Shown here piece by piece: positions 9,413-63,467 of a DNA stretch of 64,000 bases (its first letter is position 1; the number at the start of each line of letters is the position of its first letter). The position numbers were made by a program, and so were the translations under genes. The stretch comes from an archaeon (GTDB lineage: Archaea; Micrarchaeota; Micrarchaeia; Anstonellales; Bilamarchaeaceae), in contig JAGVNI010000007.1 of assembly GCA_020053355.1 (NCBI GenBank), positions 134,838 through 198,837 of the forward strand, written 5' to 3'. The notes under the pieces were generated by a model. The model ran no database searches, had not been told where the DNA came from, and worked only from the letters and a program-made list of their open reading frames with translations.

Positions 9413-9433
9413 TTTGTCCGTTTCGACAAATTC

Positions 9434-23362: not shown

Positions 23363-23372
23363 GCTACCGCCT

Positions 23373-34100: not shown

Positions 34101-36396
34101 GAAGCACGAGACGGCCGAGTACTTCCCGGAGATAGTCGCGTTGTCCAGGATGCCTTATGCATACCGCGTCCAGCTTACGGAAAAGCCCGGCGGGGTGAAT
34201 CCCCTCCATTTCGCTGCGATGCGCGAGATGGAATTCAACACGATGCTTGAGTTCCTCGGCATTCCGGTCCAGGCGGCATCCGGCACTCTCATCCTCACAA
34301 ACGGCAAATCAAAGGCTAACACACTGAAAAAGCCGAAGCCGAACGAAGATTGCTGGTCTTGTGCGAGGGTCACGCTTCCAGACGGAACAGTCATCGGGCT
34401 TGATATGGTCGCCGATGGCATGGGCGGACAGGACAAGGGCGCGAACGGCGGCAAGAGCAACGGGGAAGTTGCGAGCGGCATTGCGCGGGACGTGTTCGAA
34501 GTTGCAGCCGTAGCGGGCTGGATTCGCGAGCCCGAGGATGCGAGGAAAGTCATGCTTATTGCGGACATGGCGGTCGCGCTCGAGCAAATCCGGAAGAAGG
34601 CGTTCGGCCTCGCGGTCGATGAAGTGACGCAGGCATGGAAAGACAACGGCGTGGATGTCGCGAACATGAACCCCGCATGGATGGGGGAATTCTCAGCACA
34701 GGTGGAGGCCAAATTCGCCCTACACCTATCCAGCATGGATTCCGAGCAGGAGAACCAGATGGGCACCACCATGACCATCGCGCTCCAGCGCGGGAAGCAC
34801 CTATGGTTCATACACTGCGGCGACAGCGACGGAAAATTGGTTCGCGACGGCCGCATTGCTTTCGACACGGTCGGCCACTCAGCCGAATACGAGATGCGCC
34901 TTGATGCCAGAAAAGCTGTGCGGGAGGAGCTGGTGGACTCCTATGCAAATAGGGGCATTGATGTCGAGGCGCTCGACTCTGGCGGATTGGAGCTGTTCGA
35001 GCGCGAACTCGACGCCCTGTACGTTGCGCACATCGAGACCCTGAAACCGGTATTCGCGCAATACGGGCACGTGGTCTCATCGGGCCTGGGCGTCGGGCCA
35101 AAGCACCTCCATATAAACAACATGGATATGGGAGCTACGCCCCTTGAAGTCGGAGAAAACGACGTCATCTGGGTATCATCGGACGGCATCACCGTCCCCG
35201 TGTGCGACCACGAAATCCCCATCGTCATCTTCGGAAAGTGCATGGGCGACCTTGAAGCCGCGCGCGAGATGTTCATCTCGCTTGCAGATGCGAGGAAATC
35301 CTCGAACCCCCCGAACCCGACAATGTGCGAATGCAGGGAACGGCCTGGGAAAAACGACGACAAGACGCTCACGCTGCGCTACGCCGGAGAGCTGATGGAT
35401 GCGGAAGCTGCGTCCGGCCCAGGCGGCAAGCATGCGGCGCCTGATGGAAAATACGCATGGCTCTCGCGGCAGATTGCCACGAATCCGAAAGAGCTGGCGC
35501 TTTCAAAAAGCATGCGCCTGGTGGTAGATGGCTGCGCCGACCCCCAGCTTACGCAGGATGAGCTTATGCAGGTGTTTGGAGTTTTCATCGACACTGCCGA
35601 ATCCACGCCCCCGCAAACGTCGACGGACGCGTATTCCCTTGCGATATCCTCGATTTTCTCCGCGGTTTCAAGAAGGCCGGACCGTGACGAGTTGATAGAT
35701 GCCCTTGTGCCGCGCCTCGGCAGCTGGAGCGGCCTGATACTGAAGAAGCTCCGCAATTCCCCCGACGCATCGGAGCGGAAAAGGGCCATGTTCGATTTTG
35801 TTGCGGCAAGCGTCCCGGCCGAAGCGCTGGAGTCGCTCCTGCAGGCCCGCAATTCATGCGTTTCCGCCTGGGCGCATGAGACCCTCGGTATCGTTGCTCC
35901 GGTGGATGGAAAACAGGTCACATTCGCATCGTCGGATGCCCCGCAACCGATATTCGACTCGCAGACAGACGAGGATGGCGGTCCGCTGGACATCTGGTCG
36001 ACAAGATACCTGGATACCAAGGTGGTCGACATATTCGGCTCGACCGTCGTCGCGGACACGGCGAAAAAACTGGGCGTGCTTCCGCGCGACCTGGAAATAA
36101 TGGCGTTCTATGTATACTCGGATTTCGAGCCGCAGGTGACGATGGACACCCATCTGAGCGCGGCCGGCCAGCACCTGATTGCCTCGGTTGGCGACCATCT
36201 CTGCACGGGCGACGGCGAGCGCATACTGGTGGCATCCTTCCTGCTTTACTGCCTCAAAGAGGGGGCCCCAGAACCACTTGAAGCCAAAAGAATGGCGCGG
36301 GAGCTTTGGAAGGCGATGACTGAAATGGATGTCGATGCGCCATATTCGCTCATGTTCCACAATAAGGCCTTCGCATACAAGAACCTGATGAAGTGA
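31159..36396 (+). CDS. Giant multidomain PP2C-type phosphatase (1745 aa)
   Basis: Probably cytosolic; no signal or membrane helix. In order: an N-terminal helical region (1-~205), an AT-rich junction (~206-222), a second helical region (~223-475), a long Pro/Ala-rich disordered linker (~480-635), a region homologous to the N-terminus of the 613-aa phosphatase (~720-1050), a PP2C domain (~1065-1405) and a C-terminal helical domain (~1430-1745). PP2C motifs are intact: KPNEDCW, DMVADGMGGQDKG, MGTTMTIALQ, HCGDSDGKLV, SSDGITVP and KNDDKTLTLRY. The domain has a ~60-residue insert (DARKAVREELVDSY). A TATA box inside the ORF near 31774 and a TTG at 31825 preceded by aggtg suggest a second product of about 1523 aa, or a fusion of two genes. 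Likely counterpart to the kinases, by proximity only. Confidence 0.88.
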   Translation: MPPPPSMQTVKPAGASPRAMADGHLPLPIAERYPDEAASIKRLAIGMLRARKHGGEEFESAKELYRLAVVNLSGKLPDLEPWQVERMVLPDDLKNPNVCFAGLPESRLPFSLLGGWVNERLEAALDVEFPPNGRRSTYIRLISRILDRYVESLFPLESIPDIYRPSVMRLHAISFQPGLYEGTVINCAISLAESALLSLLTENTNLLKMSSHKSISIETGVTLSENHSSSHKDPARKTGSDYGNRFIGPSVSGGQGLDLHTQNLHPIHGARLGLPHFERIIAAKKPPVYATRDELLSHLQYVIRSGKPSRRSHPDLAGMEFPVEECDAAAEVAIAAEKKAAGDDSSLDALWPEALHAALFISATRPFKDACESADRCAQLRISLEAYSIEKRAKYLNCRFGLDDAGDQAVKDIEMARDFVEQYRSPPQNESMVLRSVRRMRQLANDVECIDLSDYEIALKVIDERHTKREPLSTMRPPSGSLPPASIEPAIPRPCALPADLQAPPAAPMEAGEPDSIPEVGVDIDLDSLGGEPFEEAPVESEGAGDETTEPVLVAPMQDGPHAVAAEPESVFDVPPPETLVAQEQSAEAGPAVPVVPAVPVVPAKSPPQAQAAQAAPAAQAAAAAAEVQAPLPALPEFEFPQYSNAILDAALEPLLPPKDNPRNVLIRRVARTLVFYKLSGYVDESIDARCVGAVACLRANYSAQAAFDFAVAIVDGVPVLAPAPVPAPAQAAAMSASEMLGQMGKSETELVAGVMGVPACDEQVVSAFLGMKPAFRELLMQRFIARRWIDGDFRTDISRFRNAKESLYSTCGLAAPTPEEKYAAMTDPGVLSSEQIFFVKHLFYTSEPLTPKHMEALAVWASNDPATEEGRARLGEYWNNVIIPAPPNAFNLNSGTWLNAPYADRMRLWHSASSDILSAGSLAHKLRFNSGERLSYDEASLVSQLYNKRWDEVWRLGEQSKQNLALALTLHTYKKGREDRKHETAEYFPEIVALSRMPYAYRVQLTEKPGGVNPLHFAAMREMEFNTMLEFLGIPVQAASGTLILTNGKSKANTLKKPKPNEDCWSCARVTLPDGTVIGLDMVADGMGGQDKGANGGKSNGEVASGIARDVFEVAAVAGWIREPEDARKVMLIADMAVALEQIRKKAFGLAVDEVTQAWKDNGVDVANMNPAWMGEFSAQVEAKFALHLSSMDSEQENQMGTTMTIALQRGKHLWFIHCGDSDGKLVRDGRIAFDTVGHSAEYEMRLDARKAVREELVDSYANRGIDVEALDSGGLELFERELDALYVAHIETLKPVFAQYGHVVSSGLGVGPKHLHINNMDMGATPLEVGENDVIWVSSDGITVPVCDHEIPIVIFGKCMGDLEAAREMFISLADARKSSNPPNPTMCECRERPGKNDDKTLTLRYAGELMDAEAASGPGGKHAAPDGKYAWLSRQIATNPKELALSKSMRLVVDGCADPQLTQDELMQVFGVFIDTAESTPPQTSTDAYSLAISSIFSAVSRRPDRDELIDALVPRLGSWSGLILKKLRNSPDASERKRAMFDFVAASVPAEALESLLQARNSCVSAWAHETLGIVAPVDGKQVTFASSDAPQPIFDSQTDEDGGPLDIWSTRYLDTKVVDIFGSTVVADTAKKLGVLPRDLEIMAFYVYSDFEPQVTMDTHLSAAGQHLIASVGDHLCTGDGERILVASFLLYCLKEGAPEPLEAKRMARELWKAMTEMDVDAPYSLMFHNKAFAYKNLMK
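31774..31783 (+). promoter_or_regulatory. TATA-like box inside the giant phosphatase ORF
   Basis: cttttaaaaa lies in a locally AT-rich stretch. It predicts transcription start near 31805, just before the in-frame TTG at 31825 (MSENHSSSHKD) with aggtg upstream. Confidence 0.4.
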
Positions 36397-36487
36397 CGCG
36401 CGCGCTTTTGCGGTGGGCGGGGCGTTGTATCGTCGTTAAAGGCCGCATTTTCGGGGCGTTTTCCACGTTTATTTACCAAAGCAAACA

Positions 36488-36500
36488 TTTAAATATATAA
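36488..36500 (+). promoter_or_regulatory. TATA box for the seven-gene envelope operon
   Basis: tttaaatatataa predicts transcription start near 36520 and a leader of about 36 nt containing a palindrome and a ribosome site. Confidence 0.6.
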
Positions 36501-36555: not shown

Positions 36556-37551
36556 TTGGCGGGAGACAAAGTACCAACTGAAGGAGAAGGGAATGGCATT
36601 CAAACCCAGAAGGGGGCGCGGCTGCAGAAGGCTGTTAGTGAATTGAAGGCGGCAGAGAAAATCTTCCCGCTTGCAGCTTCCATGATTGAAGGGCTAGCAG
36701 GCGCGAAAGAAGCGGCCATCGAGGAAATGAAGGGGAGCATTGCTTCCATCCGGAGCAGGGCGACCGGCCTTGAAGAGATCGGAAAAGAAGTTCGCGAGAA
36801 GGCGGCCAAGATTGAAGAACATTCAGAAAAAGTCGCCGCGGCCGAAGAAGCGCTTGGCAAGACCGGGCGCGAACTCGACGAGAAGGCGACAGCAGCGCAG
36901 ACATCCGCGGCGCAGGCCGAGAAGTCGGCGCAGGAAGTGACGGACGCGTTATCATCTTTGAAGATTACAGTTGGCAAGCAGGAATTCTCAGGTGTAAAGG
37001 CGCTTGAGGTGCTAAGTCAGCTCGTGACCGGCATCCCGAAGAGGGTGCAGGATGCGGTCGAGAAGGTCGTCTCGGCCGAAGTCGAGGTCGTGGACGGTGA
37101 GGGCGACAAGGCGAAAGTCGTGAAGAAGGGTGCGGACTTGGTTTCGCACCTGGTCCTTGTAGCCGATTCTGCTGAAGCCTCGGCAGGCAAGGCGCTCGAA
37201 AGCGCTGAGCATGTAGAGGGGCTTTTGGAGGACGCGGGTAGGAGCGTCAACGAGTCCAACGACGCGGCACTGAGGGCTGAAGAATCAGCCCACAAGGCGG
37301 AGGCGAAGGCCGAGAAAGCGGCTGAATCCGCGGGCCTTGTCGAAGAGCTTAGCGCCGAACTAGCCAAGACGAAGAAGGCGCTCGATGTCGCGGTTGGCAT
37401 GATTATGACGGTCCTCAACAGGAGCGGACTGGATACCGAAGTTACACCCGAAGAGAAGAGGGAAATAATCGCAGACGCCTCCACGGGGGACTTCGTCAAT
37501 GATATATTAACTGTAGAAGAAGATACGTCAGGTGCGGGTGACTCAGCATGA
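36556..37551 (+). CDS. Coiled-coil protein, gene 1 of the envelope operon
   Basis: A 331-aa soluble protein, mostly long helices with heptad-like Ala/Glu/Lys runs (~45-135 and ~205-285, e.g. AAAQTSAAQAEKSAQEV and KAEAKAEKAAESAGLVEE), separated by a compact region (~140-200: GKQEFSGVKALEVLSQLVTGIPKRV). It resembles the coiled-coil part of chemoreceptors in composition but lacks their signalling hairpin, and has no membrane helix. The start is a TTG at 36556 with a strong gaggtgat ribosome site 4 nt before; an ATG four bases upstream is out of frame. It overlaps the next gene by ATGA. Probably a cytosolic scaffold for the membrane proteins that follow (inference). Confidence 0.82.
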   Translation: MAGDKVPTEGEGNGIQTQKGARLQKAVSELKAAEKIFPLAASMIEGLAGAKEAAIEEMKGSIASIRSRATGLEEIGKEVREKAAKIEEHSEKVAAAEEALGKTGRELDEKATAAQTSAAQAEKSAQEVTDALSSLKITVGKQEFSGVKALEVLSQLVTGIPKRVQDAVEKVVSAEVEVVDGEGDKAKVVKKGADLVSHLVLVADSAEASAGKALESAEHVEGLLEDAGRSVNESNDAALRAEESAHKAEAKAEKAAESAGLVEELSAELAKTKKALDVAVGMIMTVLNRSGLDTEVTPEEKREIIADASTGDFVNDILTVEEDTSGAGDSA

Positions 37552-38807
37552 GTAATGCAAACAGGTTCATTGGTGGGAAGAAGAAAGGGGCAACTCCGGC
37601 CGGGCCAGTCGCGCCTAAGCCGAGCGCATTGCCGCCGCTCGTAGATACGGGCAGGACCAGGCAGGTCGATTTGAGCGGTTGTGCAAGGGCCGATGCCGAA
37701 GCGGCTTCCAAGGAGGAAGTCACGGTGGAAGTTACGGGCAGGACCAGGCAGGTCGATTTGAGCGGTTGTGCAAGGGCCGATGCCGAAGCTGCTTCCGAAG
37801 AGGAAGTGACTAGCGAGATCTCAGGCAAGGCAGCCTCCCCGCTTTATCCCGCAGCGCCACCGAAACCCGTTTCACCCAAAGCGGCGCCGGGCAATGTAGT
37901 CCCAATCACTTCCGCAAAGGCGGCCCCGGTCGCTGCGGTAGAGGCTGATGCAGGCGAAGCAGAAGCGGAATCACCCGCTCCGTCCGCTCCGGCAAAGCCG
38001 GCTGCGGAAAAACCCTCTGCCGCCGATTTCCTTGAGAAGGTCAAGGCTACTGTTCAGGCTACCATACAGACAACCGTACAAGGCATGCTCGCACCCATCT
38101 TTGAAAGGCTGGATCAGCTCGAAGAGGGGCTTAGAGGCAACGATGAAATGCTCACCGGAGTCCTCGAGTCAGTCGAGGGCCCGAATCCGGAAAGCCCGGA
38201 AGCCAAGGAGGCGGCAGAAAAAGGCATGGTTTTGCTCGGCCTAAGAGGCCAGCTTGACCAGCTTAGGACGCAGCTGCTTGGTGAGAACCCGGACGAGACT
38301 ATTAATAATTTCGGCGGCGGCCCAATCGTGCCGCTCCTTCTGGAGCAGACCATGGATACCGAGGGTAATCTGAAAGACCTAGTCGGCACGGACTGCGAAC
38401 GGACGCCGTCATTAGTAAGAAATAATAGCAACCTGACCGCCAAGACATTCGTGTTGGAAATGCTGAAGGAAACGCCGGATGAGGAGACAATCAAGCAGGC
38501 CGCAAGAGAAGGCGGGCCCAACACCTCTAAAGCCATCCTGAACGCGCTCGCCACCGACATGGAATACGCGGTTGAAATCGTCGGCGCGCTTTCGCTTGCG
38601 CCGGCCGAGTCGCTCGATGACCCGAAAAACGCGGAGGTCAAGGCTGGCGTCCAAGTCGATGCGACTAACGTCACCCAAAGGGCGGCTTACTACCATGATA
38701 ATCTCGATTGGGTTGCCCTGGGGCGGGAGGCGGCGGAGATGAGATCTCCCGCGCCTGCGCCAGAGGAATCCAGTTCAGCGCCTGAAGAAACCGGAGGGGA
38801 TGCATAA
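37548..38807 (+). CDS. Pro/Ala-rich protein with 29-residue tandem repeat, operon gene 2
   Basis: A 419-aa soluble protein that I do not recognise. Residues ~34-91 are two near-identical 29-residue repeats containing TGRTRQVDLSGCARADAEAAS. A disordered Pro/Ala linker (~92-165) follows, then a helical region (~165-260: ADFLEKVKATVQATIQTTVQGM, with LDQLEEGLRGNDEML) and a C-terminal folded part (~260-395: NPDETINNFGGGPIVPLLLEQ). No signal or membrane segment. It overlaps gene 1 by ATGA and gene 3 by one base, so it is tightly coupled. Likely a cytosolic component; the repeat is an unusual short motif that could be a docking or phosphorylation site. Confidence 0.8.
   Translation: MSNANRFIGGKKKGATPAGPVAPKPSALPPLVDTGRTRQVDLSGCARADAEAASKEEVTVEVTGRTRQVDLSGCARADAEAASEEEVTSEISGKAASPLYPAAPPKPVSPKAAPGNVVPITSAKAAPVAAVEADAGEAEAESPAPSAPAKPAAEKPSAADFLEKVKATVQATIQTTVQGMLAPIFERLDQLEEGLRGNDEMLTGVLESVEGPNPESPEAKEAAEKGMVLLGLRGQLDQLRTQLLGENPDETINNFGGGPIVPLLLEQTMDTEGNLKDLVGTDCERTPSLVRNNSNLTAKTFVLEMLKETPDEETIKQAAREGGPNTSKAILNALATDMEYAVEIVGALSLAPAESLDDPKNAEVKAGVQVDATNVTQRAAYYHDNLDWVALGREAAEMRSPAPAPEESSSAPEETGGDA
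37646..37819 (+). repeat. In-frame tandem duplication, 87-bp unit, two copies
   Basis: Copy 1 is 37646-37732 and copy 2 is 37733-37819. The first 57 bases are identical, and the rest differ at a few positions, indicating recent duplication. Confidence 0.9.
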
Positions 38808-39982
38808 TGGCAGGACCATCATTATGGGAAAAGAGACAAGCACAGCTTGCAAAGAGGGGCCAGCAGCCCAAGGCGCCTTCAGTGCGTCCGGCCGCGGGCC
38901 TGGTTGAGCCTCCGGCATCGGTAGCCGTTCCGGCAGCTCCGGTGGTGGCAGAAGCCGCACCCAAGAGCGAGCCGGCACCCTCCGTTCCTGCGCCGGTCGC
39001 TCCGGTTGCGCCGAAGGCGCAGTTGCCTTCGCTATCATCGCGCCAGGCGCCTGTAGCGCCTGCGGCACCGGTTGTGAAACTTCCGTCAGTCGCGCCAAAA
39101 CCAGCGCCGGCTCAGTCAGCTCCTGTTGTCGCTCCGTCTGAGCCCGTTGCGGCTCCGCCGGCACCGGTTGCGCAATCGCCTGTGCCAAGCGTATCAAGCA
39201 GCGGGACTCATAATCTGACATCAGGCGAATTGGAAATCGTTTCGGAAGAGCCGATAGCCCCTTCAGGGCCGGTCTCAACGCCTGGCGCTCCGGCACCGGA
39301 GCAATTGTGGGCAGAACCGTCTTCCCTCTCAAGCCTGATTCCTGACGAGGCGGCGCCCGAGGCGCCGGTAATGCCTGATGAGGCGCCTGCCAAGGCAAAA
39401 TCGAAGCCCCCGGCAGCCGAACTCAAGCGGAAGGAGTCAGGGACAAGGAGCTTCAAGGCGCTCAGCGACAATGGCTGGCTGCCTTCACGCTACAAGCTGA
39501 CATACACCGGCCAGGCGCCAAACAACGCGTGCAACTTCCTGCTGATAGGCAAGGAGGAGCGTCAATTGACGCTTGAACTGAACGTGCCGCAGAAGCTCAC
39601 CGTCCAGACCAAAGGCGGTCCGATGGAAGTCACGCTGACTTACACCGGCCTCTCGAAAACGGATGGGGCCAGGCAGGTCGATTATGTCGTGGAAGGCGGA
39701 GTGTCCGCAGTCACCGGCATCATGGAGCGGTTCAGGAACGTCGGCCCTGTCGCGCTCTCTGCATGGAGGAGCCTGGTGAAGCACCTTCCTGAGACGATTG
39801 CCATCGGCTATGCCGCAGGCATTGCAGTCTGTGGATTCACGATGAGTTGGATAAAAACCACGCTCGGCGGGTTCCACCCGTATGTGACCGTGGCAGTGCC
39901 GGTTATCATGACCGGGCTTGCATTATGGACATGGGCGGCTAGAAACAAGGCGATTCGGAAAGAAAACGAGAAAACAGAATGA
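38807..39982 (+). CDS. Pro/Ala-rich membrane protein, operon gene 3
   Basis: A 391-aa protein with a short basic N-terminus (SLWEKRQAQLAKRGQQP), a ~190-residue Pro/Ala/Val-rich disordered linker, a folded domain (~205-300: SDNGWLPSRYKLTYTGQAPNNACNFLLIGKEERQ is its start, continuing with strands) and two C-terminal membrane helices (ETIAIGYAAGIAVCGFTM and VTVAVPVIMTGLALWTWAA) ending in a charged tail. Both termini are probably cytoplasmic. It shares its layout with gene 5. The ribosome site ggagggg precedes the ATG. No family recognised; likely a membrane scaffold in the same complex. Confidence 0.8.
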   Translation: MAGPSLWEKRQAQLAKRGQQPKAPSVRPAAGLVEPPASVAVPAAPVVAEAAPKSEPAPSVPAPVAPVAPKAQLPSLSSRQAPVAPAAPVVKLPSVAPKPAPAQSAPVVAPSEPVAAPPAPVAQSPVPSVSSSGTHNLTSGELEIVSEEPIAPSGPVSTPGAPAPEQLWAEPSSLSSLIPDEAAPEAPVMPDEAPAKAKSKPPAAELKRKESGTRSFKALSDNGWLPSRYKLTYTGQAPNNACNFLLIGKEERQLTLELNVPQKLTVQTKGGPMEVTLTYTGLSKTDGARQVDYVVEGGVSAVTGIMERFRNVGPVALSAWRSLVKHLPETIAIGYAAGIAVCGFTMSWIKTTLGGFHPYVTVAVPVIMTGLALWTWAARNKAIRKENEKTE

Positions 39983-39999
39983 TTCTTGGGGTGTGTATG

Positions 40000-40923
40000 A
40001 TGACTGAAAAGCTTGAAGCAGGAAAGGGCGGGTCTCCGGCTGCAGCGCCTGAAAAGGCGACGCAGAAGAGCAGGCGGTTTGGCATAGGGGCAGCCGCTGC
40101 GACGTTAGTCGGAACGGCTGGGATAGCGGCGCTCATCTTCGCAAGGAGCTGCGGCCCGAGCGGACCGGACAGGCTTCCTGTCGCAGTGGAGACCGCAACG
40201 CCGGCGCCGGTTGTCCAGAACAACTGCCCGCAGCCTGGCGAACGGTGCAACCTTGAACTCGGCGAGCACGACCCGCATTCATCCATGTGGTCTCCTGCCA
40301 AATGCGGATACTGCGGTGACAACATCCAGCAGGCCTGGGAAACCGCGGACAACTGCCCGGTGGACTTCCACTGCGGCGACGGCAATGTGAACCGCGGCAC
40401 TATCTACGGCGCATACATCGCTCCGGGAGCGCAGGGCGGGGCATACTCGCTCGGAACCATCACGGTAACGGAATCATGCACGTCCGGCGATACGGCATTC
40501 TGCGAAGCGGACTGCCCGGCTCCAAGGGGCGGCGCTGCACCTGCAACATCAGGTTCAGGCGGCCGCAGAACCGGGAGGCGCGACACGGCAGAGCCCGGCT
40601 CGGTTGCAACGACCGTCGCGCCGCCTTCGGGCGGACTGTGCGACTCCGAAGTGACAAGCAGGTTCATGAACCGTGTCAGCAGCTCCCTGCTCGGCAACCC
40701 GAGCGCTGCAAGAAGCGCTGCCGGGGCTACCGACCAGACCGTGCGCGCAAGCGTTTCAATCTCCATCAGCAACGGGGTGCCAAGAGTTTCAGCCATCAGG
40801 GTATCATGCCCCGGCTGCTCTGGCGGTGCGCTTTCGCCCGGGACTGTAAGCGTGGGCGGCATACCGATTGACCGGAGCACGACCTGCAACACTTCAATCT
40901 CGGTGAACATACCTCCGGGCTGA
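40000..40923 (+). CDS. Single-pass Cys-rich exported protein, operon gene 4
   Basis: A 307-aa protein: short basic N-terminus, one membrane helix (GIGAAAATLVGTAGIAALIFA) and an outer part with many cysteines (CGYCGDNIQQAWETADNCPVD, FHCGDGN, FCEADCP). A Gly/Arg/Thr linker leads to a C-terminal ~100-residue domain (CDSEVTSRFMNRVSSSLLG to SVNIPPG) that is nearly duplicated in gene 6 and related to the end of gene 7. Start chosen at ATG 40000, six bases after ggggtg; 39997 is possible, and the longer reading from 39979 lacks a ribosome site. It should face the cell exterior with an N-terminal anchor. Confidence 0.82.
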   Translation: MTEKLEAGKGGSPAAAPEKATQKSRRFGIGAAAATLVGTAGIAALIFARSCGPSGPDRLPVAVETATPAPVVQNNCPQPGERCNLELGEHDPHSSMWSPAKCGYCGDNIQQAWETADNCPVDFHCGDGNVNRGTIYGAYIAPGAQGGAYSLGTITVTESCTSGDTAFCEADCPAPRGGAAPATSGSGGRRTGRRDTAEPGSVATTVAPPSGGLCDSEVTSRFMNRVSSSLLGNPSAARSAAGATDQTVRASVSISISNGVPRVSAIRVSCPGCSGGALSPGTVSVGGIPIDRSTTCNTSISVNIPPG

Positions 40924-40949
40924 ATTTTTTCTTCTCCATTTTTTTTATC
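40924..40949 (+). terminator. T-rich tract after operon gene 4
   Basis: Two long T runs follow the stop directly, suggesting partial termination before the internal promoter at 40971. Confidence 0.45.
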
Positions 40950-40953
40950 CGTG

Positions 40954-40982
40954 CTGCCTTGCTTAGGCAGTATATTTAAAAA
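40954..40982 (+). promoter_or_regulatory. Internal promoter with adjacent hairpin before operon gene 5
   Basis: A perfect inverted repeat ctgcct-tgctt-aggcag (40954-40970) abuts the TATA box tatatttaaaaa (40971-40982). It may be an operator at a second operon promoter, with transcription start near 41003. Confidence 0.5.
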
Positions 40983-41033
40983 ACCGTTCTTACATATTTT
41001 ACTTACTTAAATAACAACTGAGGGTGGGTGTGG

Positions 41034-43001
41034 ATGGCCAAATTGGCAGATATTCAGAGCAAGAAAAAGCGCGGCGCGCAAAGGCAGGAGCCAGCCGCGC
41101 CGAAGCCTCCGCTGGAAGAGCCGGCGGGCAGTTCAGCCCGGGCCAAACCCGAACCTTCTCCAATGCCCGCGCCTGTTGCGCCGCCGCTCGAAGTGGAAAT
41201 CCGGCCGCCCGCGCCGGAACCGGCTTCAGTTGCGCCTCCGTCACAGCCGGCATCCTTGGCTCCGGCGTCCGCTTCACCGCACGTGATTGACGAAAGCGTC
41301 CTAATCAGCCTTCCTGATGCGGCGCTGATAAATTTCAGCCATGGCCGCTTCAACCAGCTTAAACTCACGACCCCGCAGGACGTCCTCCTTGCCGCAATAG
41401 ACAACCCTGATATCGCGCTCATCGTGAAAGTGGCCAAGGCACGGAATCTTCTCGGGCCGCTTTTAGCACCTGCTTCCGCAGGAGTGGAAAGGGCAAGCGT
41501 CGCACCTGTTTCAGCGCATGTCGGCCCGCTCGCCTACGAGGCTACGATGGCATCCGATGTCCGCGCCGGACTGAGCGAGCCCCCGCCCCATCTGCCCGCG
41601 CCCGTTTCGCAGCCACCCCCGGCGCCGACTCGCATTTCCAAGGCCCCGCCGCCTCCGCCAAGGAGGAAGTCAATGCCACCTCCGCCGCCCGTGCTTGCCG
41701 AAGGCGTCCCGCTCTCGGAAACCAACGCGTTCATCATCGAAATCCGGGAATCCGGCGAATCCACGAAGGCGAGGTTCGACCGCGCAATGGCATTCATAAG
41801 GGTGAAAGTCAAGGAGATAGTCGCTGAGCACGGCTCCGCCGAATTCAACAAGGCCGAAGTATCCGTCAAGCAGAAGCAGCAGCAGGCGGATGCCGGAGCC
41901 GATGTTTCGTTCACCCCGCTGGAAGGGAAAATACTGGAGCTTTTCAAATTGAACGAGCTTATCGCATGGCTGTCCAGGCGGATGAAGGCCGAAGGCGGCG
42001 TCCACGAGATACTTGAAGCGAACGGCAAGAACGGGAATGGCGCACCGGTGCAGCCGCCCCCGCAACCCCCCGCGCCAAAGCAGGCATCTTCAGCATCGGC
42101 CGGCCCCCAGGAACAAAAGGCGGCAGCCGAACCGGTTGCGGCAGAATCAGAAAAGCCCGCACGCGCAAGCGTTCCTCCGTCTTCGGCAGGGCCGAAGCCT
42201 GGCGCCCTGCGCAGGTTCTTCGGAAGCTATACCACCTGGTCGGTCGTTGGCATCGGCGCATTCAGCGGCGCCCTCGCATATGCGGACAGCTTCAAGGAAA
42301 TGGCGTTCGGCGCAAAGAAACTCGCCGAGATGGTGGGCAGCAGGCCGGTCGCGGACATCCCAACGATGTGGGCTGTCGGCGCCTACAGCGCCGTAATGAC
42401 GGCGCTCTTCGCGGTTTCGCTTCTTATTAAGCGCTCGATGGAAAGGCGCATGGCCGAGCGTGCGCTCAAGCGGGCCCAGCGCTCGGGCGAAGACAGGGAG
42501 AAGATGGGCTACGTCTTCAAGAAGCTTTCCGAAATCGTCCTCAACTACGCCAAGACCGAGGACCAGAAGTCGCAAATTCGGCAGGCCATGAGGACGGACG
42601 AGTTGCTGTTCATCAGCATGTACGAGCTGCGCAAAGACGCGATTTTCGACGACATACTCGAGGATGCGCGCGTGCCGCAGAAGCTGCGGGGCATCATCTC
42701 GCAGGTCATGATTCCGGGCCTTGAACTTGAGCTCATGCAGAAAAGGCTCACCCGCTTTGCGGACCTGATATACGAACCCAAGAGGCTCGCGGTATTCGAG
42801 AAGACATATGAGGAGGACCCGGTGTTCAGGATAATCTGCGACGAAGTGTTCCGGCGCAATTTCGCGAACGACTATGTGGACCCGTCGCGGGCAAGGGCAC
42901 TCTTCAGGGCCATAGAGAACAGCAAGCGCGAGAATGTCGGAGAGCCGCTTCTCAAGGCGCTTGAGGAAGATTACGTTATCGTCAGTTCAAAGAAAAAATG
43001 A
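41034..43001 (+). CDS. Pro-rich two-helix membrane protein, operon gene 5
   Basis: A 655-aa protein. It has a basic N-terminus (KLADIQSKKKRGA), a Pro/Ala linker (~15-85), a small folded segment (~85-150: LPDAALINFSHGRFNQLKL), a second Pro-rich linker, a helical domain (~220-330), another linker, and two membrane helices (~402-420 WSVVGIGAFSGALAYA and ~440-462 MWAVGAYSAVMTALFAVSLLI). The C-terminal ~190-residue helical cytosolic domain is rich in charged residues (KKLSEIVLNYAKTEDQKSQI, FRRNFANDYVDPSRARALFRA). It shares its overall plan with gene 3. The ATG at 41034 follows agggtg. No family recognised. Confidence 0.8.
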   Translation: MAKLADIQSKKKRGAQRQEPAAPKPPLEEPAGSSARAKPEPSPMPAPVAPPLEVEIRPPAPEPASVAPPSQPASLAPASASPHVIDESVLISLPDAALINFSHGRFNQLKLTTPQDVLLAAIDNPDIALIVKVAKARNLLGPLLAPASAGVERASVAPVSAHVGPLAYEATMASDVRAGLSEPPPHLPAPVSQPPPAPTRISKAPPPPPRRKSMPPPPPVLAEGVPLSETNAFIIEIRESGESTKARFDRAMAFIRVKVKEIVAEHGSAEFNKAEVSVKQKQQQADAGADVSFTPLEGKILELFKLNELIAWLSRRMKAEGGVHEILEANGKNGNGAPVQPPPQPPAPKQASSASAGPQEQKAAAEPVAAESEKPARASVPPSSAGPKPGALRRFFGSYTTWSVVGIGAFSGALAYADSFKEMAFGAKKLAEMVGSRPVADIPTMWAVGAYSAVMTALFAVSLLIKRSMERRMAERALKRAQRSGEDREKMGYVFKKLSEIVLNYAKTEDQKSQIRQAMRTDELLFISMYELRKDAIFDDILEDARVPQKLRGIISQVMIPGLELELMQKRLTRFADLIYEPKRLAVFEKTYEEDPVFRIICDEVFRRNFANDYVDPSRARALFRAIENSKRENVGEPLLKALEEDYVIVSSKKK

Positions 43002-43021
43002 TCCAAGACGGGGTGTGTGGA

Positions 43022-44473
43022 ATGAGCGAGATGAAAAAAGACACGTTTATGCAGAAGATCCGGAACAAGGGGCTTGTCTACGGCAGCGCAGTGGTCATTG
43101 CGGGATGCACCGGGCTGGTGCTTCTTGCAAAAGGATGCCCTGGCGGGGTACCTTTCCAGGCTCGGCCGTCCCTTTGCGAGCCCGTGCGCGGCGACGGCAT
43201 ATGCTGCGAATCGGAATCATCCCCGTTCCAGCGCAATCCCAACGGCACAATAAAGATGAGGGCCGGACAGCCGGTCCCGAATTCCGATTACTCCCTCGAA
43301 GACTGCCACTTCGGCGACAACGTCTGCCAGAACCAGATGAATCTCGCGGATGTGCGCGATGCGGCCGGCAGGCCTGTTGCGCGCATCATGGACAAATACC
43401 TCGATGGCAGGGCGATAACGCTTCCGCTTGAGGATGCGACCTCGCAGGACTGCGTGATGCAAATCGTCCGGGACGCGCCTTGCGGCCCACTCGATGCCAC
43501 GCACACCGAGACCATAAACCGGCCGAGGATGACCGGTGCGCTCGTGCTCCATTCCCTTAGGCAGAGGTCCCAGGAGGAAATCCAGGACATGCACCTCCAC
43601 CCCGAAAGCCTCCGGCCCGGGGACAATTATTTCGTCGTGATAAACAATTACGAGGAAGTCTGCACAAGGGCGGACGAGGCGCTCCCTCTCTGCCTGCCGA
43701 CTTCGGTTTCAGCCTGCGCATGCCCGAACCACGTGGACTGCGCGCCCACCCCTTGCGGCAACGGCCGCATAGATTCGGGCGAGCGCTGCGACCAGAGCGC
43801 GACGCCAAACGGGTGCGCAAGAAACCAGGCTTGCCGTGGCTGCAGCACATGCGCCCCAGTCAAGCAGTGCGGCAACGGCCGCATAGACCCCGGAGAGACC
43901 TGCGATGCGACCGCAAGCCCGACAGGGTGCGGCGCCAACCAGACCTGCGCGCCAGGGTGCCGCCAATGCACCGGCGGAGAGACGCACAGCGCCTGCCGCA
44001 ATGAGACATGCGTGAGCGTTCCGGGTGCCGGACGCAACGCGTGCAGCACGGATGACGACTGCATCACAAGCGCATGCGGCAACAGCCGCGTAGACCCCGG
44101 AGAGGCATGCGACCCGCCGAATTCCGCGTGCGGGACCAACGGCAGGTGCAGCAGCACCTGTTCCTGCGTCGAAACCGTGGGCCAATGCGACGCGGAAGTC
44201 ACAGGCAGGTTCCAGAACCGCGTGAGCAGCACGCTGCTCGGAAGCCCCGGCAATGCAAGAAGCGCTGCAGGTGCGACCGACCAGACCGTGCGGGCCAGCG
44301 TCGGGATTAATGTCGTTTCTGGCGTGGCAAGCGTCACCGGCATATCGCTTTCATGCCCCGGTTGCACGGCCGGAGCAGCGCTTCCGGCATCCAGCATCAG
44401 CGTGGGCGGCATCCCGATTGACCGGAGCACGACCTGCAGGACCACGGTAGTGGTGAACATACCCCCCGGGTGA
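43022..44473 (+). CDS. Exported protein with Myxococcus-type Cys-rich repeats, operon gene 6
   Basis: A 483-aa single-pass protein: membrane helix at the N-terminus (GLVYGSAVVIAGCTGLVLLA), an outer domain of ~180 residues, then repeats beginning CGNGRIDSGERCD, CGNGRIDPGETCD and CGNSRVDPGEACD. These match the Cys-rich disulfide repeat typical of myxobacterial surface proteins. The last ~95 residues (CDAEVTGRFQNRVSSTLLG to VVNIPPG) nearly duplicate the end of gene 4. ATG 43022 is chosen because ggggtg lies six bases upstream, as for gene 4; an ATG at 42998 overlaps the previous stop but has no such site. Function unknown; presumably extracellular and disulfide-bonded. Confidence 0.85.
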   Translation: MSEMKKDTFMQKIRNKGLVYGSAVVIAGCTGLVLLAKGCPGGVPFQARPSLCEPVRGDGICCESESSPFQRNPNGTIKMRAGQPVPNSDYSLEDCHFGDNVCQNQMNLADVRDAAGRPVARIMDKYLDGRAITLPLEDATSQDCVMQIVRDAPCGPLDATHTETINRPRMTGALVLHSLRQRSQEEIQDMHLHPESLRPGDNYFVVINNYEEVCTRADEALPLCLPTSVSACACPNHVDCAPTPCGNGRIDSGERCDQSATPNGCARNQACRGCSTCAPVKQCGNGRIDPGETCDATASPTGCGANQTCAPGCRQCTGGETHSACRNETCVSVPGAGRNACSTDDDCITSACGNSRVDPGEACDPPNSACGTNGRCSSTCSCVETVGQCDAEVTGRFQNRVSSTLLGSPGNARSAAGATDQTVRASVGINVVSGVASVTGISLSCPGCTAGAALPASSISVGGIPIDRSTTCRTTVVVNIPPG

Positions 44474-44488
44474 ATGTAAGGCAAATCG

Positions 44489-45481
44489 ATGTTGATTCTT
44501 ATGGTCAGCCCTAAAACCGCTTATCGGACAAAAGTATTGTCAGCAACAGCGCTCGCAGCCGCATCGATAGGCGTGCTGTTCCTCAGGTTTGCAAAACCGA
44601 AAGACGAGCCTATCATGCACACGGAGCGCCCGCACCCGACCATGCCCGCGCCCGCGCCACAGGAAGACTGCTCGCCGCAAAAAGGGGATTTGATGTGCGA
44701 AATCCGCAAAGGCGAGGCCGACCCGCTCTCCCTGACATTCGACCCTGAGAGCTGCGGCTTTTGCGGCGATGGTGTGCGCCAGGTGAACGCGCCGGCAGGC
44801 TCCCCGCCCGTGCTTGATTTGGACAGCGGCATAACCACCCAGCTTGTCACCGAGCGTCCCAGCGAGACGCCTGAATCCTGCCCGGTGGACCTCCACTGCG
44901 GCAACGGCAGGCGCGATTTCAGGCGGACATATGGCTCCTGGCTCGAGCCTTCTGCAGATGCTGGCGCGGCAGACGGGGGGTATTCCCTCGGCACAAAGAC
45001 AATCACCGAAACCGCCCGCAACTGCCCCGGTGACGCCCGCCAGAATGGCAACGGCGGGGGAGACTCGGGAATAGAAGTCATCGAGGATGCGGAGCCCCCG
45101 CTTACCCTGCCTTCCACTTCGGCCTGGAATTGCCCGTCCATGCAGATGCCTTCCAACTCCTCAGACATGGTGGACATGCGCTCAAGCAGCGTGTGGAACG
45201 CGCTTTCGAGGGTATATGGGGCTGTCAACAGCAATGCGGCGGCCCTTCGGAGGGCCCTTGGCGTGAGCGAGTCGGCGAGAGTGGACCTGCGCCTCTATAT
45301 ACGCGTGGAACCCCGCGGATACATGTCGTTCAACCAGGTCTCCGCGCAATGCGACAACCAGCCGTGCGGGGATGCCCAGACCATCATCAACGCAACCGGG
45401 CTCTCGCTGAACGGGCTGGTGATGGGCGCACCGGAAACCGAATGTTTCTGGACGCTCACCATCCACGTCCCGAGGGCGTGA
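44489..45481 (+). CDS. Single-pass Cys-rich exported protein, operon gene 7
   Basis: A 330-aa relative of gene 4: N-terminal membrane helix (VLSATALAAASIGVLFLRFA), an outer domain with CGFCGDGVRQV, SCPVDLHCGNGR and YSLGTKTITE, matching gene 4's CGYCGDNIQQ, NCPVDFHCGDGN and YSLGTITVTE, then a C-terminal domain (~215-330) that is a divergent form of the shared domain (VDLRLYIRVEPRGYMSFNQV, TINA-like strand, LTIHVPRA). It lies 15 nt after gene 6 and ends the operon. Probably part of the same exterior assembly. Confidence 0.82.
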   Translation: MLILMVSPKTAYRTKVLSATALAAASIGVLFLRFAKPKDEPIMHTERPHPTMPAPAPQEDCSPQKGDLMCEIRKGEADPLSLTFDPESCGFCGDGVRQVNAPAGSPPVLDLDSGITTQLVTERPSETPESCPVDLHCGNGRRDFRRTYGSWLEPSADAGAADGGYSLGTKTITETARNCPGDARQNGNGGGDSGIEVIEDAEPPLTLPSTSAWNCPSMQMPSNSSDMVDMRSSSVWNALSRVYGAVNSNAAALRRALGVSESARVDLRLYIRVEPRGYMSFNQVSAQCDNQPCGDAQTIINATGLSLNGLVMGAPETECFWTLTIHVPRA

Positions 45482-45547
45482 ACAACAGGGCTTTCAGGAT
45501 GAAGGGCGCTTGTGCGCTTTCTGGCAGGCCGCGAACCCCCCGCTAGC

Positions 45548-45557
45548 GTTTTATTCC
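45548..45557 (+). promoter_or_regulatory. TATA box for the HAD-family gene
   Basis: gttttattcc is centred 26 bp before the ATG at 45578, implying a leaderless transcript and excluding the longer reading from 45512. Confidence 0.55.
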
Positions 45558-45577
45558 CTTTTCTCCAGATTACATCC

Positions 45578-46243
45578 ATGGTCAAGTACCTCCTTTTCGA
45601 TATCGACGATACGCTCTTCCCGTCCACGGAATTCTCGGCGCTTGCGAGGAAGAACGCCCTGAATGCCATGATAAGCATGGGGCTGGATGACGATTTTGAT
45701 CCGATAAACGCCCGCCTCCTGTCCATAATCGAGAAGAAAGGCTCGAACTACCCCGGGCATTTCAACGACTTGTGCTCGCAGCTTGGCATCCAGGAGCCGG
45801 GGAAATACATCGCTGCCGCAGTGGCGGCCTATCACGACACCAAGACCTCGATTGCGCCTTTTCCGAAAGTCCCCCCCACTCTCCTTCGGCTGCGGGAAAG
45901 CGGCTACCGGCTCTATATCGCCACCCAGGGGAATTCAATCAAGCAGTGGGACAAGCTCATACGCCTGCGCATTGCGCTCTATTTCGAAGGAGTCTTCGTC
46001 TCAGAGGAGCTTCGGGAGGACAAGGGCCCGGCATTCTATAAAAAAGTGCTAAGCGCCCTGGATGCGAAAGCCGGCGACTGCATGATGGTTGGAGACCGCG
46101 AGGATACGGACATCGCCCCCGCAAGGGCTGTGGGCATGAAGACCGTCCGGGTGCTCTCCGGCAGGCAGGCCACGCTGCCGACGAAAGCCGATTTCGTCAT
46201 CAAGGATATCAGCGAAATCATCCCGATTCTGCGGGATTTGTGA
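45578..46243 (+). CDS. HAD-superfamily hydrolase (phosphatase)
   Basis: A 221-aa soluble hydrolase with the HAD nucleophile motif LLFDIDDTLFP (catalytic Asp pair), motif II in YIATQGN, motif III lysine near EDKGPAFYKKVLS and motif IV MMVGDREDTDIAPARAVGMKT. A helical cap lies between motifs I and II. These features suit a small-molecule phosphatase acting on a sugar phosphate or nucleotide; substrate unknown. The start at 45578 is set by the promoter spacing. Confidence 0.92.
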   Translation: MVKYLLFDIDDTLFPSTEFSALARKNALNAMISMGLDDDFDPINARLLSIIEKKGSNYPGHFNDLCSQLGIQEPGKYIAAAVAAYHDTKTSIAPFPKVPPTLLRLRESGYRLYIATQGNSIKQWDKLIRLRIALYFEGVFVSEELREDKGPAFYKKVLSALDAKAGDCMMVGDREDTDIAPARAVGMKTVRVLSGRQATLPTKADFVIKDISEIIPILRDL

Positions 46244-46362: not shown

Positions 46363-47211
46363 ATGAGACTTATCGTATTGGGGCTAATCCTGGTTTCTTT
46401 ACTCCTAGCCGGCTGCGGCAGCAAGTCCACGACGACCGGCTGCAAGGACAACTCGGCATGCAAGTCCTGGCAGTTCTGCAACACCACAAGCAGCACATGC
46501 GCCACGCTTGCCGGATACTGCGACCTGGATTCGCAGTGTTCGGACAACATGACGCGATGCGACGTAGAGCGGACGCACCTGTGCGTCTACAAGTCCGGCC
46601 TCTGCAGGACGACCGCCAACTGCCAGAACTGGCAGGTATGCGACTCTTCGCAGACCTGCAGGCCCGCGCCAGGCTACTGCGATTCCGATTCCCAGTGCGA
46701 CCCTGTCTTCGAATACTGCAGCCCTTCGACGCATGAATGCGGTCCTGCCCCGGGATACTGCGTGGCGGACACCGACTGCGACTCATGGAAGAAATGCGAT
46801 GTTGTGAGCAAAAGATGTTTCATGATGGAGGGCAGGTGCGACCTCGATGGCGACTGCGAGACATGGCAGACCTGCGAAATGAAGCTGCATAAATGCGACC
46901 CGAAAGTCGGTTACTGCCTAAACGACGACAACTGCCAGGAGTGGTCCCGCTGCGATACCGCGACCAAAAAGTGCGTCGCGAGGCAAGGCTATTGCCTGGC
47001 CGACAACGAATGCAACGAGTGGGAATACTGCGCAGAAGATACGCACCGCTGCACTGCGACCAAGGACCGCTGCGGCAGCGCTTCAGAATGCGGCGAATGG
47101 CAGTACTGCGACAGCAACCATTATTGCAATGCGAACTCCGGTTCCTGTGACGACAATGCGGACTGCGTGCAGGGAGAAGTCTGCAACCAGGATACCCACG
47201 GCTGCCAGTAG
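46363..47211 (+). CDS. Lipoprotein made of tandem Cys-rich repeats
   Basis: A 282-aa protein with a lipoprotein-type signal (LIVLGLILVSLLLAGC, probable lipidated Cys at 18). The rest is about ten repeats of ~27 residues of the form GYC-x-DxxC-xxWxxC-xxxxxxC, for example GYCLNDDNCQEWSRCDTATKKC. Each repeat offers four cysteines for disulfides. There is no separate catalytic domain. It should be anchored on the outer face of the membrane as a rod or binding surface. It lies between the envelope operon and kinase 3, has its own promoter, and its Cys content resembles the other surface proteins of the window. Confidence 0.85.
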   Translation: MRLIVLGLILVSLLLAGCGSKSTTTGCKDNSACKSWQFCNTTSSTCATLAGYCDLDSQCSDNMTRCDVERTHLCVYKSGLCRTTANCQNWQVCDSSQTCRPAPGYCDSDSQCDPVFEYCSPSTHECGPAPGYCVADTDCDSWKKCDVVSKRCFMMEGRCDLDGDCETWQTCEMKLHKCDPKVGYCLNDDNCQEWSRCDTATKKCVARQGYCLADNECNEWEYCAEDTHRCTATKDRCGSASECGEWQYCDSNHYCNANSGSCDDNADCVQGEVCNQDTHGCQ

Positions 47212-47256: not shown

Positions 47257-49425
47257 TCACTCGGAAGTAATCCTGGGCGGGCGGCCGGGGACCTTGGTCG
47301 GGGGATTCTGCGGCGGCCTTGCCGTCTGCGCGCGCTCAAGCGAAACGCGCACCTCGCGGTCCTCATCCGGGATGACGTCCCGGTGGGCCTCCGTATAGCC
47401 CCTTTTCCTGAATGTCAGGCGGATGGCATCCGATTGGGCCGGCAGCGTCAAAGTGCATGCCCCGTTCGCGTCTGTCCTGCACGCCTCGGTGCTCCACACG
47501 AGGACCTGCACCCCCGGAAGCCCGGTGTTCAGCGTTATCCTGTGCTCGGGTGTAACTGCAGAATCCTGCGACTCCCCCGCATCTGCTGCCAGGGGCGCAA
47601 GCGAATCCTGCGATGCGACGGCTCTTGCCTCGTCCGCGCCGCCATCCCTTGCCGCCACAGTTATCGGCCTGGCAATCTGTTGCGTGGCAGGCGGTTTCGC
47701 CGTTCCGGAAAGATTATTGTCCTGCTGAACCTCGGCAGGCCCCTCCGGCCTGCTTGAGTGTAAGACTATTCCAATGCCTGCACCGCCAATTGCCAATGAG
47801 CCTGCGATTGTGCCGGCAATCAGCCACTTGGAGAATTTCTTGCGGGCCTTTGCCGGCGGTACGGTCGGCCTTTTCGAAGAGCCCCGAGGTATGTCCCTTA
47901 CGCGGACTATCTCGGTCTTCTCGTACCTGGGCAACGTCTTGTGGTCCTGCTCATCGCTCAAATCCGGGACCTCTTCCTCCTGGCCCTGCATCGGAACCTG
48001 GGGGGGCGTCCTCCTATATGGGGCGCCTGCCACATCCGATTCCGGAACAAGTGCATCCGGGCCCGACTGGCCCAGGAGCTCCTCATCCACTATGACCGGC
48101 GGCTCGAAGGACGGCGCCTTGCTTTGTGCCGCAGGTTCAGGCGCTATCACTGCAGAACCGTTGGCTTCAGTTGGCTGGCCGCTCTGTCCTCCATTACCGT
48201 TTGAAACGCCATTCACATTCTCAATCGCCGCTTTGAGCTCGGCGACGCTCTGGAACCTGTGCTGCGGCTTCTTCTCCATGCATTTGAATACGATTTCTTC
48301 TACTTCCTCGGGAATGTTGACGCCGGGGCATACCAGTCTGAACGGTCTTGGCTTCTCGTTCCAGAGCCGGTCGCGGATTTCCGCCCACTTCTTGACCCGA
48401 TAGTCATTGTATTCGTCGGAAGTCTGCGTCTCCCGCTTATCAAGAATCTCGAATTCAAAAGGCGGCCTTCCGCTAAGAAGCTCATACATCGTGGCGCCGA
48501 CGGACCAGATGTCCGAGCGCTCGTCCACGGTAAGGCCCCATGCCTGCTCCGGCGACATATACCACGGGCTTCCGCCCACCCCCTCCCCTTTTTTCGTGAC
48601 TTCCGGGTTGGATGGTGCGATAATCTTCGCAAGGCCGAAATCAAGCACCTTGACCTCCCATTCGCCAATCTTGCTTGTGACTATGAATATATTCTCCGGT
48701 TTTATGTCCCGGTGGATGACCGGCTTCCTTACCCCCTTCTCCTCGTAAGTATGCGCGGTATCGAGCGCCTTGCAGACCTGGACCATGACAGGCTTGACCT
48801 TTCCCCAATCCAGGGGCCCTTCGCCTATGTCTCTCCTGCCAGAAAGGATAGCCCCCAGGTCCATGCCGTTAAGGAGTTCCATGACATAGAACGGGCGCCC
48901 GTCTGAGAGCTGTGCAAACGTCTCGATGGCCACGATGTTCGGGTGCTTGAGCTTCTTCGCCAGCATCACTTCCACTTCGAACCTCCGATTCAACTCTTCC
49001 CTCGCCTTCTCAGGCCCTTCCGGGGCGGCCTGGAGGTCCCCTTCGTTGAATGAAATGACCTTGATTGCTACCGGGTCATCTATCACATATGTTCCTTTCG
49101 CCTGGAGGCTTTCCACCAGGTGCGTTCCGCGGTAGACGATGCCGAATCCGCCCTGGCCAAGGATGCTCTCGACACGATAAACTTCCCCTTCTCTCATTTT
49201 GATTTCCGTTATGTCCAGGCCTTCCTGGGCCTCGATGGCCGGGGGCGGCTCCGAGTGCCTTTTCTCAGCTTGCTGGGGCGGTTTGGCGAGGGCTTCCAGG
49301 ATTGGCGCGGGCAGCTTGAACTGGTCCGGCAATACGCCCTGGACGGTCCGAACCCCAAGCACCGTGGAGCCGGGCCTTTTCGGGGGCCGGGGAGGGTTTC
49401 CTCTGCCGTCGCCTGATTTTTCCAT
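47257..49425 (-). CDS. Transmembrane Ser/Thr protein kinase (kinase 3)
   Basis: A 722-aa kinase. A Pro-rich N-terminus (~1-75) precedes the kinase domain (~80-402) with GQGGFGIVYRG (~90-100), ATP lysine in VAIK (~122), HRDIKPEN (~238-245), DFGLA (~262-266) and MSPEQA, all intact. There is a ~35-residue insert before the C-lobe end (RETQTSDEYNDYRV). A long linker leads to one membrane helix (~534-555: WLIAGTIAGSLAIGGAGIGIVL), then an outer part with a PEGA-like sandwich (NTGLPGVQVLVW, TFRKRGYTEAHRDV). ATG 49425 is chosen because a TATA box lies 26 bp before it; the reading from 49467 would place the box in the gene. The 12 bases before the ATG match kinase 2. Confidence 0.94.
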   Translation of the reverse strand: MEKSGDGRGNPPRPPKRPGSTVLGVRTVQGVLPDQFKLPAPILEALAKPPQQAEKRHSEPPPAIEAQEGLDITEIKMREGEVYRVESILGQGGFGIVYRGTHLVESLQAKGTYVIDDPVAIKVISFNEGDLQAAPEGPEKAREELNRRFEVEVMLAKKLKHPNIVAIETFAQLSDGRPFYVMELLNGMDLGAILSGRRDIGEGPLDWGKVKPVMVQVCKALDTAHTYEEKGVRKPVIHRDIKPENIFIVTSKIGEWEVKVLDFGLAKIIAPSNPEVTKKGEGVGGSPWYMSPEQAWGLTVDERSDIWSVGATMYELLSGRPPFEFEILDKRETQTSDEYNDYRVKKWAEIRDRLWNEKPRPFRLVCPGVNIPEEVEEIVFKCMEKKPQHRFQSVAELKAAIENVNGVSNGNGGQSGQPTEANGSAVIAPEPAAQSKAPSFEPPVIVDEELLGQSGPDALVPESDVAGAPYRRTPPQVPMQGQEEEVPDLSDEQDHKTLPRYEKTEIVRVRDIPRGSSKRPTVPPAKARKKFSKWLIAGTIAGSLAIGGAGIGIVLHSSRPEGPAEVQQDNNLSGTAKPPATQQIARPITVAARDGGADEARAVASQDSLAPLAADAGESQDSAVTPEHRITLNTGLPGVQVLVWSTEACRTDANGACTLTLPAQSDAIRLTFRKRGYTEAHRDVIPDEDREVRVSLERAQTARPPQNPPTKVPGRPPRITSE

Positions 49426-49447
49426 GTTGTAATTTATGTGCGAAAGT

Positions 49448-49457
49448 CTTTTAAAGG
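49448..49457 (-). promoter_or_regulatory. TATA box for kinase 3
   Basis: The minus-strand sequence ctttaaaaga is centred about 27 bp before the ATG at 49425. Confidence 0.65.
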
Positions 49458-49523
49458 GGGCGTTCATTCTCGGATATTCATGCCCGCCCGAGCATCCGCC
49501 GCCACAACCAGGCGCTGGCCGAC

Positions 49524-63448: not shown

Positions 63449-63467
63449 ATCTCCCACCCTTCCTTGT

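Follow-up and report, generated by a model that had tools for sequence, protein, structure and literature searches.

A conserved, phosphatase-linked gene cluster of one Micrarchaeota genus and the cell-surface complex that it may encode

Bacterial membrane systems controlled by Ser/Thr kinases and PP2C-type phosphatases include phosphorylation-gated secretion systems. TonB and TolA are single-pass membrane proteins with an extended outer region, which ends in a C-terminal domain of helix-strand-strand-helix-strand topology (PDB 6sly, 2gsk, 7zc8, 2x9a). In the Agl-Glt machine of Myxococcus xanthus, GltG and GltJ each combine a transmembrane (TM) helix with a TonB_C domain, and GltG also holds a phosphopeptide-binding FHA domain (PMC3169522, PMC5349195). 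Here, we report a conserved, previously undescribed gene cluster in a 64,000-nucleotide stretch of an archaeal contig (JAGVNI010000007.1; the whole stretch is hereafter called the window), which consists of a gene for a giant PP2C-type phosphatase and seven genes, g1 to g7. We tentatively propose, at somewhat less than even confidence, that the locus may encode, in one Micrarchaeota genus, a cell-surface complex that spans the membrane and is regulated through reversible phosphorylation of proteins, and that its likeliest use would be contact with, or adhesion to, a partner cell.

The seven + strand open reading frames (ORFs) span 36556-45481 with successive gaps of -4, -1, -4, +104, -4 and +15 nt, so that the tight packing described in an earlier note on this DNA is borne out. 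The genome G015 (locus L002) holds g1 to g7 in identical order, with protein identities of 53-71%, and the ratio of nonsynonymous to synonymous substitution (dN/dS) against G015 was 0.17-0.31 across the seven, pointing to purifying selection on all of them. Because of this kept order and these ratios, the comparison indicates that g1 to g7 are real genes. The likely starts of g4 (39997), g5 (41034), g6 (43022) and g7 (44504), deduced from comparison with relatives, lie slightly inside the mechanically called ORFs. The features of the locus are as follows.

31159-36396, + strand: giant PP2C-type protein phosphatase, 1745 amino acids (aa), first gene of the locus in all ten carrier genomes; PP2C domain at residues ~1056-1243
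36487-36495, + strand: archaeal TATA box of g1, ATTTAAATA, conserved in L002
36556-37551, + strand: g1, acidic cytosolic coiled-coil protein, 331 aa; no TM helix, no Cys; dN/dS 0.17
37548-38807, + strand: g2, acidic Pro-rich cytosolic protein, 419 aa; no TM helix; orthologues in relatives
38807-39982, + strand: g3, 391 aa; Pro-rich N-terminus, conserved middle domain, two C-terminal TM helices; found in nine genomes
39997-40923, + strand: g4, 308 aa; short cytosolic tail, one TM helix, Cys-rich module, linker, C-terminal domain (CTD)
40639-40920, + strand: CTD of g4, TonB_C-like topology
40974-40982, + strand: archaeal TATA box of g5, ATTTAAAAA, after a T-rich tract 3' of g4
41034-43001, + strand: g5, 655 aa; long Pro-rich cytosolic N-terminus with an RRKS-polyPro stretch, TM region, helical cytosolic C-terminus
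43022-44473, + strand: g6, 483 aa; one TM helix, Cys-rich region, CGNGRIDxGExCD repeats, CTD
44186-44470, + strand: CTD of g6, 69% identical to the g4 CTD of the same genome
44504-45481, + strand: g7, g4-like protein, 325 aa; TM helix, Cys-rich module, CTD at 45131-45478

The source genome of the window comprises 1.59 Mb in 20 contigs. The same window encodes a thermosome-type chaperonin, an Rpb7/RpoE-type RNA polymerase subunit, an ATP-dependent DNA ligase and an inositol-phosphate synthase, and among named sequences, the locus is most closely related to a contig of Candidatus Micrarchaeota archaeon PMV_4.13 (G015:C20), a metagenome-assembled genome (MAG) recovered from the sediment of Movile Cave (PMC9386943). 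The host is itself an archaeon and shares its GTDB genus with this MAG. Contamination of the MAG was rejected as an explanation on account of the archaeal genes on the same contig, the archaeal TATA boxes and the presence of the locus in ten genomes. RNA families and tRNA genes were not found in the window.

In agreement with the earlier note, which had recognised no known family or system, g1 to g7 gave no Pfam, NCBIfam or PHROGs match beyond chance or coiled-coil low complexity; weak matches to STAS, LNT_N and DUF6264 fell below the cut-off and did not recur among orthologues. The hidden Markov model and structure searches, of which the PDB profile search covered the g4 family alone, thus placed none of the genes in unrelated known families.

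The locus was found in 10 of the 17 genomes of the genus (G000, G005, G006, G009, G010, G011, G012, G013, G015 and, as PP2C-g1 only on a short contig, G008), with the gene order kept as far as contigs permit, and profile searches of up to 295 relatives, probably all MAGs and several of them incomplete, did not find the system outside the genus (isolated weak outside matches were not followed). The note had described a seven-gene operon, and that these genes form one conserved system stands, whereas a simple seven-gene unit does not, given that the phosphatase gene always comes first. Five genes, PP2C-g1-g2-g3-g4, make up the core, and g5-g6(-g7) constitute an additional unit of transcription that is optional and has an archaeal TATA box to itself. 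The internal promoter suggested for the sole gap was accordingly located, with ATTTAAAAA lying in the 104-nt g4-g5 gap and a TATA-like site plus an upstream T-tract present in six of the six genomes in which this gap is readable. The motif ATTTAAAWA occurs 4 times in the 64 kb against 0.38 expected, and two of these four occurrences are in the gaps before g1 and g5. On a 577-kb contig of G009 with the locus intact, PP2C and g1-g4 are followed directly by the HAD-family gene listed below, showing that g5-g7 are truly absent; a proline-dehydrogenase-like gene stands between PP2C and g1 in this genome. Orthologues of g7 were present in G015, G006 and G011 and absent from G013 and G009.

The PP2C gene lies upstream of g1 in 10 of the 10 carriers. 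Its Pfam PP2C_2 match (E=1.3e-4) was just under the cut-off when the protein was searched alone and at or over it in the genome search, and outside the PP2C domain no family match was obtained. The metal-binding motifs NED, DGMGG, MGTT, GDS, SDG and NDD are all present in the window phosphatase and are kept among carriers with some substitutions, the first motif being NDD in G006 and NQD in G013; an exact DGMGG match was not found in the G010 phosphatase. By this domain and its metal-binding Asp motifs, the product of 31159-36396 is a predicted PP2C-type phosphatase. Ser/Thr kinases were detected in 17 of 17 genus genomes, at 1-16 copies each, and none was found in the sampled other families of the order. 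A PP2C gene alongside membrane and surface components in a kinase-rich genome is what the locus has in common with the bacterial systems under kinase and PP2C control, although none of their structural genes was recognised here and the PP2C of the locus is a giant protein. Two PEGA-like Ser/Thr kinases, further to the one near the locus described below, are encoded in tandem at window positions 21740-25007 (- strand).

The topology of g1 to g7 was derived from a hydropathy scan and matches that given in the earlier note. The library matches of g1 were limited to low-complexity coiled coil, and no homology between g1 and g2 was found. The designation of g2 as a repeat protein holds insofar as a tandem unit of 87 bp is present, but it comprises merely two copies (37636-37809) and is absent from the nearest relative. 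In g5, one TM helix was clear in the scan and a weaker second one just before it was read by eye; its dN/dS was 0.23, and the C-terminal part is the most conserved. By eye, the TM helices of g3 and g5 show no acidic residues. The common plan claimed for g3 and g5 was confirmed as a two-helix layout, with the second helix of g5 weak, but without detectable homology (hhalign probability 0.4%). The idea that g5-g6 arose as a tandem duplicate of g3-g4 was dropped, as hhalign found no homology of g3 with g5 and, for g4 and g6, homology in the CTD only. The g3 protein of G012 bears ankyrin repeats. Elsewhere in the window's genome (C18, L026:8396-8863, - strand), a short protein matches the middle cytosolic part of g5 (profile positions 209-411, E=2.7e-23).

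A single TM helix near the N-terminus followed by Cys-rich sequence is found in g4, g6 and g7, with 14, 40 and 11 Cys residues, respectively. The sharing of domains among these three, as noted earlier, was verified by hhalign for the CTD (g4/g7 versus g6, probability 99.4%, E=2e-21), to which the homology with g6 is limited, while the Cys-rich module CxxxKGExDxxSxxxxPxxCGxCGD...CPxDxxCGNG is common to g4 and g7. Two to three repeats of g6 resemble the DUF4215-type Cys repeat (CGNGxxDxGExCD); they differ in that one of six g6 members matches that family (E=0.031, below the Pfam cut-off) and in that they are placed between the TM helix and the CTD. Such modules also occur apart from the locus: in an unrelated locus of G011 (L091:10396-11661, - strand), a g4-type Cys-rich module precedes an FGE-sulfatase-like domain (E=3e-9), and stand-alone secreted or lipoprotein-like CTD proteins are encoded beside an agmatinase-like gene in G005 and G006 (L092:4196-4648 and L093:5588-6076), with a further, similar match at G015:C22:55426-55686.

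The isolated CTD was modelled by AlphaFold from an alignment of 15 sequences with a predicted local distance difference test score (pLDDT) of 80, and of ~90 in the core, giving a helix at 20-44, strands at 52-60 and 65-75, a helix at 83-90 and a strand at 106-114. The fold is thus confidently predicted as helix-strand-strand-helix-strand. When g4 was modelled at full length, the quality was low except in the CTD (mean pLDDT 53), and a Foldseek search with that model was uninformative. With the CTD, the top four Foldseek matches in the PDB were TonB of Helicobacter pylori, TonB of Escherichia coli, FusB and TolA, with more TonB lower down, at E of at least 0.25 and TM-scores of at most 0.44, none of which is significant; the ranking is nevertheless informative because a TonB_C-like fold had been guessed from the sequence before the Foldseek search. 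The TonB_C profile gave no match at E<=1 for any of 12 members. The modelled CTD hence bears a resemblance to TonB_C and is not assigned to that family. As in TonB and TolA, it ends a protein that crosses the membrane once and has an extended outer region; it differs from their domains in the lack of a significant Foldseek or profile match, its conserved Cys residues and its archaeal host.

Families of the MotA/TolQ/ExbB/ExbD type were absent from g1-g7 and the flanking genes scanned, the search being limited to the locus, so that no ExbBD or TolQR accompanies the CTDs there, and Omp85 (PF01103) was detected in none of 40 relatives, among them all 17 genus genomes, but in 7 of 14 controls. An outer membrane of the bacterial type is therefore not expected, which weakens an outer-membrane reading that had been prompted by a barrel-like neighbour, and the question arises whether a TonB_C-like fold is at work in cells without an outer membrane. 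The Agl-Glt machine may serve as the nearest working analogy, in that it has two distinct single-pass proteins with the same TonB_C-type C-terminal domain, as well as Pro-rich parts; in contrast to it, g1-g7 include no TolQR-type motor, TPR or FHA proteins, the host is archaeal, the PP2C gene is integral and the outer modules are Cys-rich. Because there is no TonB_C profile match, no TolQ/ExbB-type subunit in the locus and no Omp85, the locus is not assigned to the TonB/Tol/Glt machines.

Within genomes, the g4 and g6 CTDs were 69 (G000), 72 (G015), 42 (G006), 81 (G013), 87 (G012) and 99% (G005) identical, whereas the identity of the same gene's CTD between species was 19-41%, with the exception of the close pair G000/G015 (84 and 80%). 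The synonymous divergence (dS) between the two CTDs within a genome was 0 (G005), 0.19 (G012), 0.26 (G013), 0.71 (G015), 0.93 (G000) and saturated (G006); the values for G005 and G012 are less certain, being read across contig breaks, and those for G000, G015, G006 and G013 come from one contig each. In the CTD tree, which has long branches, G005, G012, G013 and G000+G015 cluster by genome with starred support and G006 is unresolved, and the approximately unbiased test rejected a single clade of all g4 CTDs (p=0.001) and likewise one of all g6 CTDs (p=0.0003). The DNA similarity of g4 and g6 in G013 starts at the CTD border, and contigs of G005, G010 and G012 break off inside the CTD, as expected for a repeat. 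The g4 and g6 CTDs evolve in concert within genomes while diverging between species. This homogenisation argues for a shared binding function of g4 and g6, and a shared partner would fit because only the outermost domain of both proteins is homogenised.

In the proposed complex, g1 and g2 may form a cytosolic scaffold and g3 and g5 a membrane-seated part, and g4, g6 and g7 would be exported and reach outward via disulfide-braced modules, with their CTDs presented at or beyond the S-layer. There, the CTDs of g4 and g6 would bind one common partner, or each other, and surface binding would be passed inward; the PP2C would reverse phosphorylation of Pro-rich cytosolic parts (e.g., RRKS-polyPro in g5) by the many Ser/Thr kinases of the genus. 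Phosphorylation is suggested as the control step because the PP2C gene is linked and every genus genome has such kinases. The inside scaffold, membrane core and outer disulfide-bonded parts envisaged in the earlier note fit these sequence features, but "trans-envelope" in the bacterial sense does not suit an archaeal host with no detectable Omp85. Contact with another cell would be the most probable role for two reasons: DPANN archaea have partner cells with which they live, and in another, cultured micrarchaeon, filaments to the host and remodelling of the surface at contact sites were described (PMC8975820). Several points weigh against the contact complex: operon conservation is no proof of a complex, known adhesion domains were not found in the locus proteins, and the kinase gene adjacent in the window adjoins the locus only in the window's genome and G015. 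Moreover, 7 of the 17 genus members lack the locus, which is therefore dispensable for the lifestyle, and gene conversion of near copies is possible without functional need, though in G013 the conversion respects the domain border. A more specific version, in which a phosphatase-gated transmembrane complex without known relatives would bear paired TonB_C-like tips, gene-converted within a line and fast-diverging between species, as a recognition tag specific to the species or the partner in contacts with hosts or kin, is unlikely in that full form.

Other explanations share part of this evidence. The locus may encode a receptor for a soluble or envelope ligand that relays its signal through the PP2C to gene expression or to synthesis of the envelope and involves no cell contact; the constant linkage of the PP2C would suit it, and the short secreted or lipoprotein-like CTD forms elsewhere in G005 and G006 could be competitors or ligands, but big Cys-rich stalks and several surface subunits exceed the needs of a simple receptor and no response regulator or transcription factor is linked, making this alternative rather unlikely, if the least so of those considered. 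That g4, g6 and g7 are instead structural subunits of a surface appendage or fibre, co-polymerising via matching CTDs on an assembly platform of g1-g3 and g5, would explain gene conversion as keeping the matching CTDs of two co-located proteins compatible, and filaments running between a micrarchaeon in culture and its host were observed (PMC8975820). We consider a fibre quite unlikely, as all three proteins retain their TM helix, a pilin-like family match and an assembly ATPase are lacking in the locus, and the filament paper treats a different micrarchaeon. Even less probable is a force-transducing machine like TonB/Tol/Agl-Glt, with g3/g5 as motor or stator and g4/g6/g7 as TonB-like arms whose CTDs pull surface partners. 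The CTD topology, the identity of the top four Foldseek matches, the same combination of one TM helix and TonB_C in GltG and GltJ of one Myxococcus machine (PMC5349195) and a beta-barrel-like secreted protein encoded nearby (49557-51140) would all speak for it, but it is opposed by the Foldseek scores, by the two TM helices of g3/g5 that show no acidic residues by eye and match no MotA/ExbB/ExbD family, and by the missing Omp85. Mere co-location of unrelated orphan genes was already disfavoured and appears highly improbable: the HAD, Cys-lipoprotein and other neighbours are also constant, suggesting that the region is generally syntenic in the genus, but PP2C-g1-g2-g3-g4 stand together in every carrier with one insertion (G009), g1-g4 overlap or nearly so, g5-g7 are gained or lost as a second unit, two conserved promoters mark the units and the g4/g6 CTDs evolve in concert.

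The locus is a defined, testable candidate for partner-cell recognition or holding and surface regulation in DPANN archaea, in which the genes of a putative surface complex accompany one for a protein phosphatase and the genomes abound in eukaryotic-type kinases, and the concerted evolution of the outer domains predicts which part makes the specific contact.

Downstream of the locus, two genes follow.

45512-46243, + strand: HAD-family hydrolase, adjoining the locus or its last gene in eight genomes
46363-47211, + strand: Cys-repeat lipoprotein-like protein, 87% identical in G015, after the HAD gene in the same eight genomes

The HAD-family hydrolase probably does not belong to the system. Beyond them, a Ser/Thr kinase gene (47257-49467, - strand) lies back to back with a secreted-protein gene (49557-51140, + strand), the product of which has no family match and shows, in its C-terminal ~280 residues, a resemblance to the amphipathic beta-strands of a barrel. 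By coordinates, this kinase/barrel-like pair occurs again in G015:C20, G006:C2, G010:C4, G014:C2 and G005:C9, despite no Omp85 having been found. At window positions 5923-13882, two large secreted-looking proteins with similar C-terminal tails are encoded in tandem, the first of which matches NosD/beta-helix families. Two Asp-rich (DADVDADVD), secreted-looking proteins with similar C-terminal ends are encoded at window positions 61817-63989 (- strand), and similar ones occur in relatives (L050, L051).

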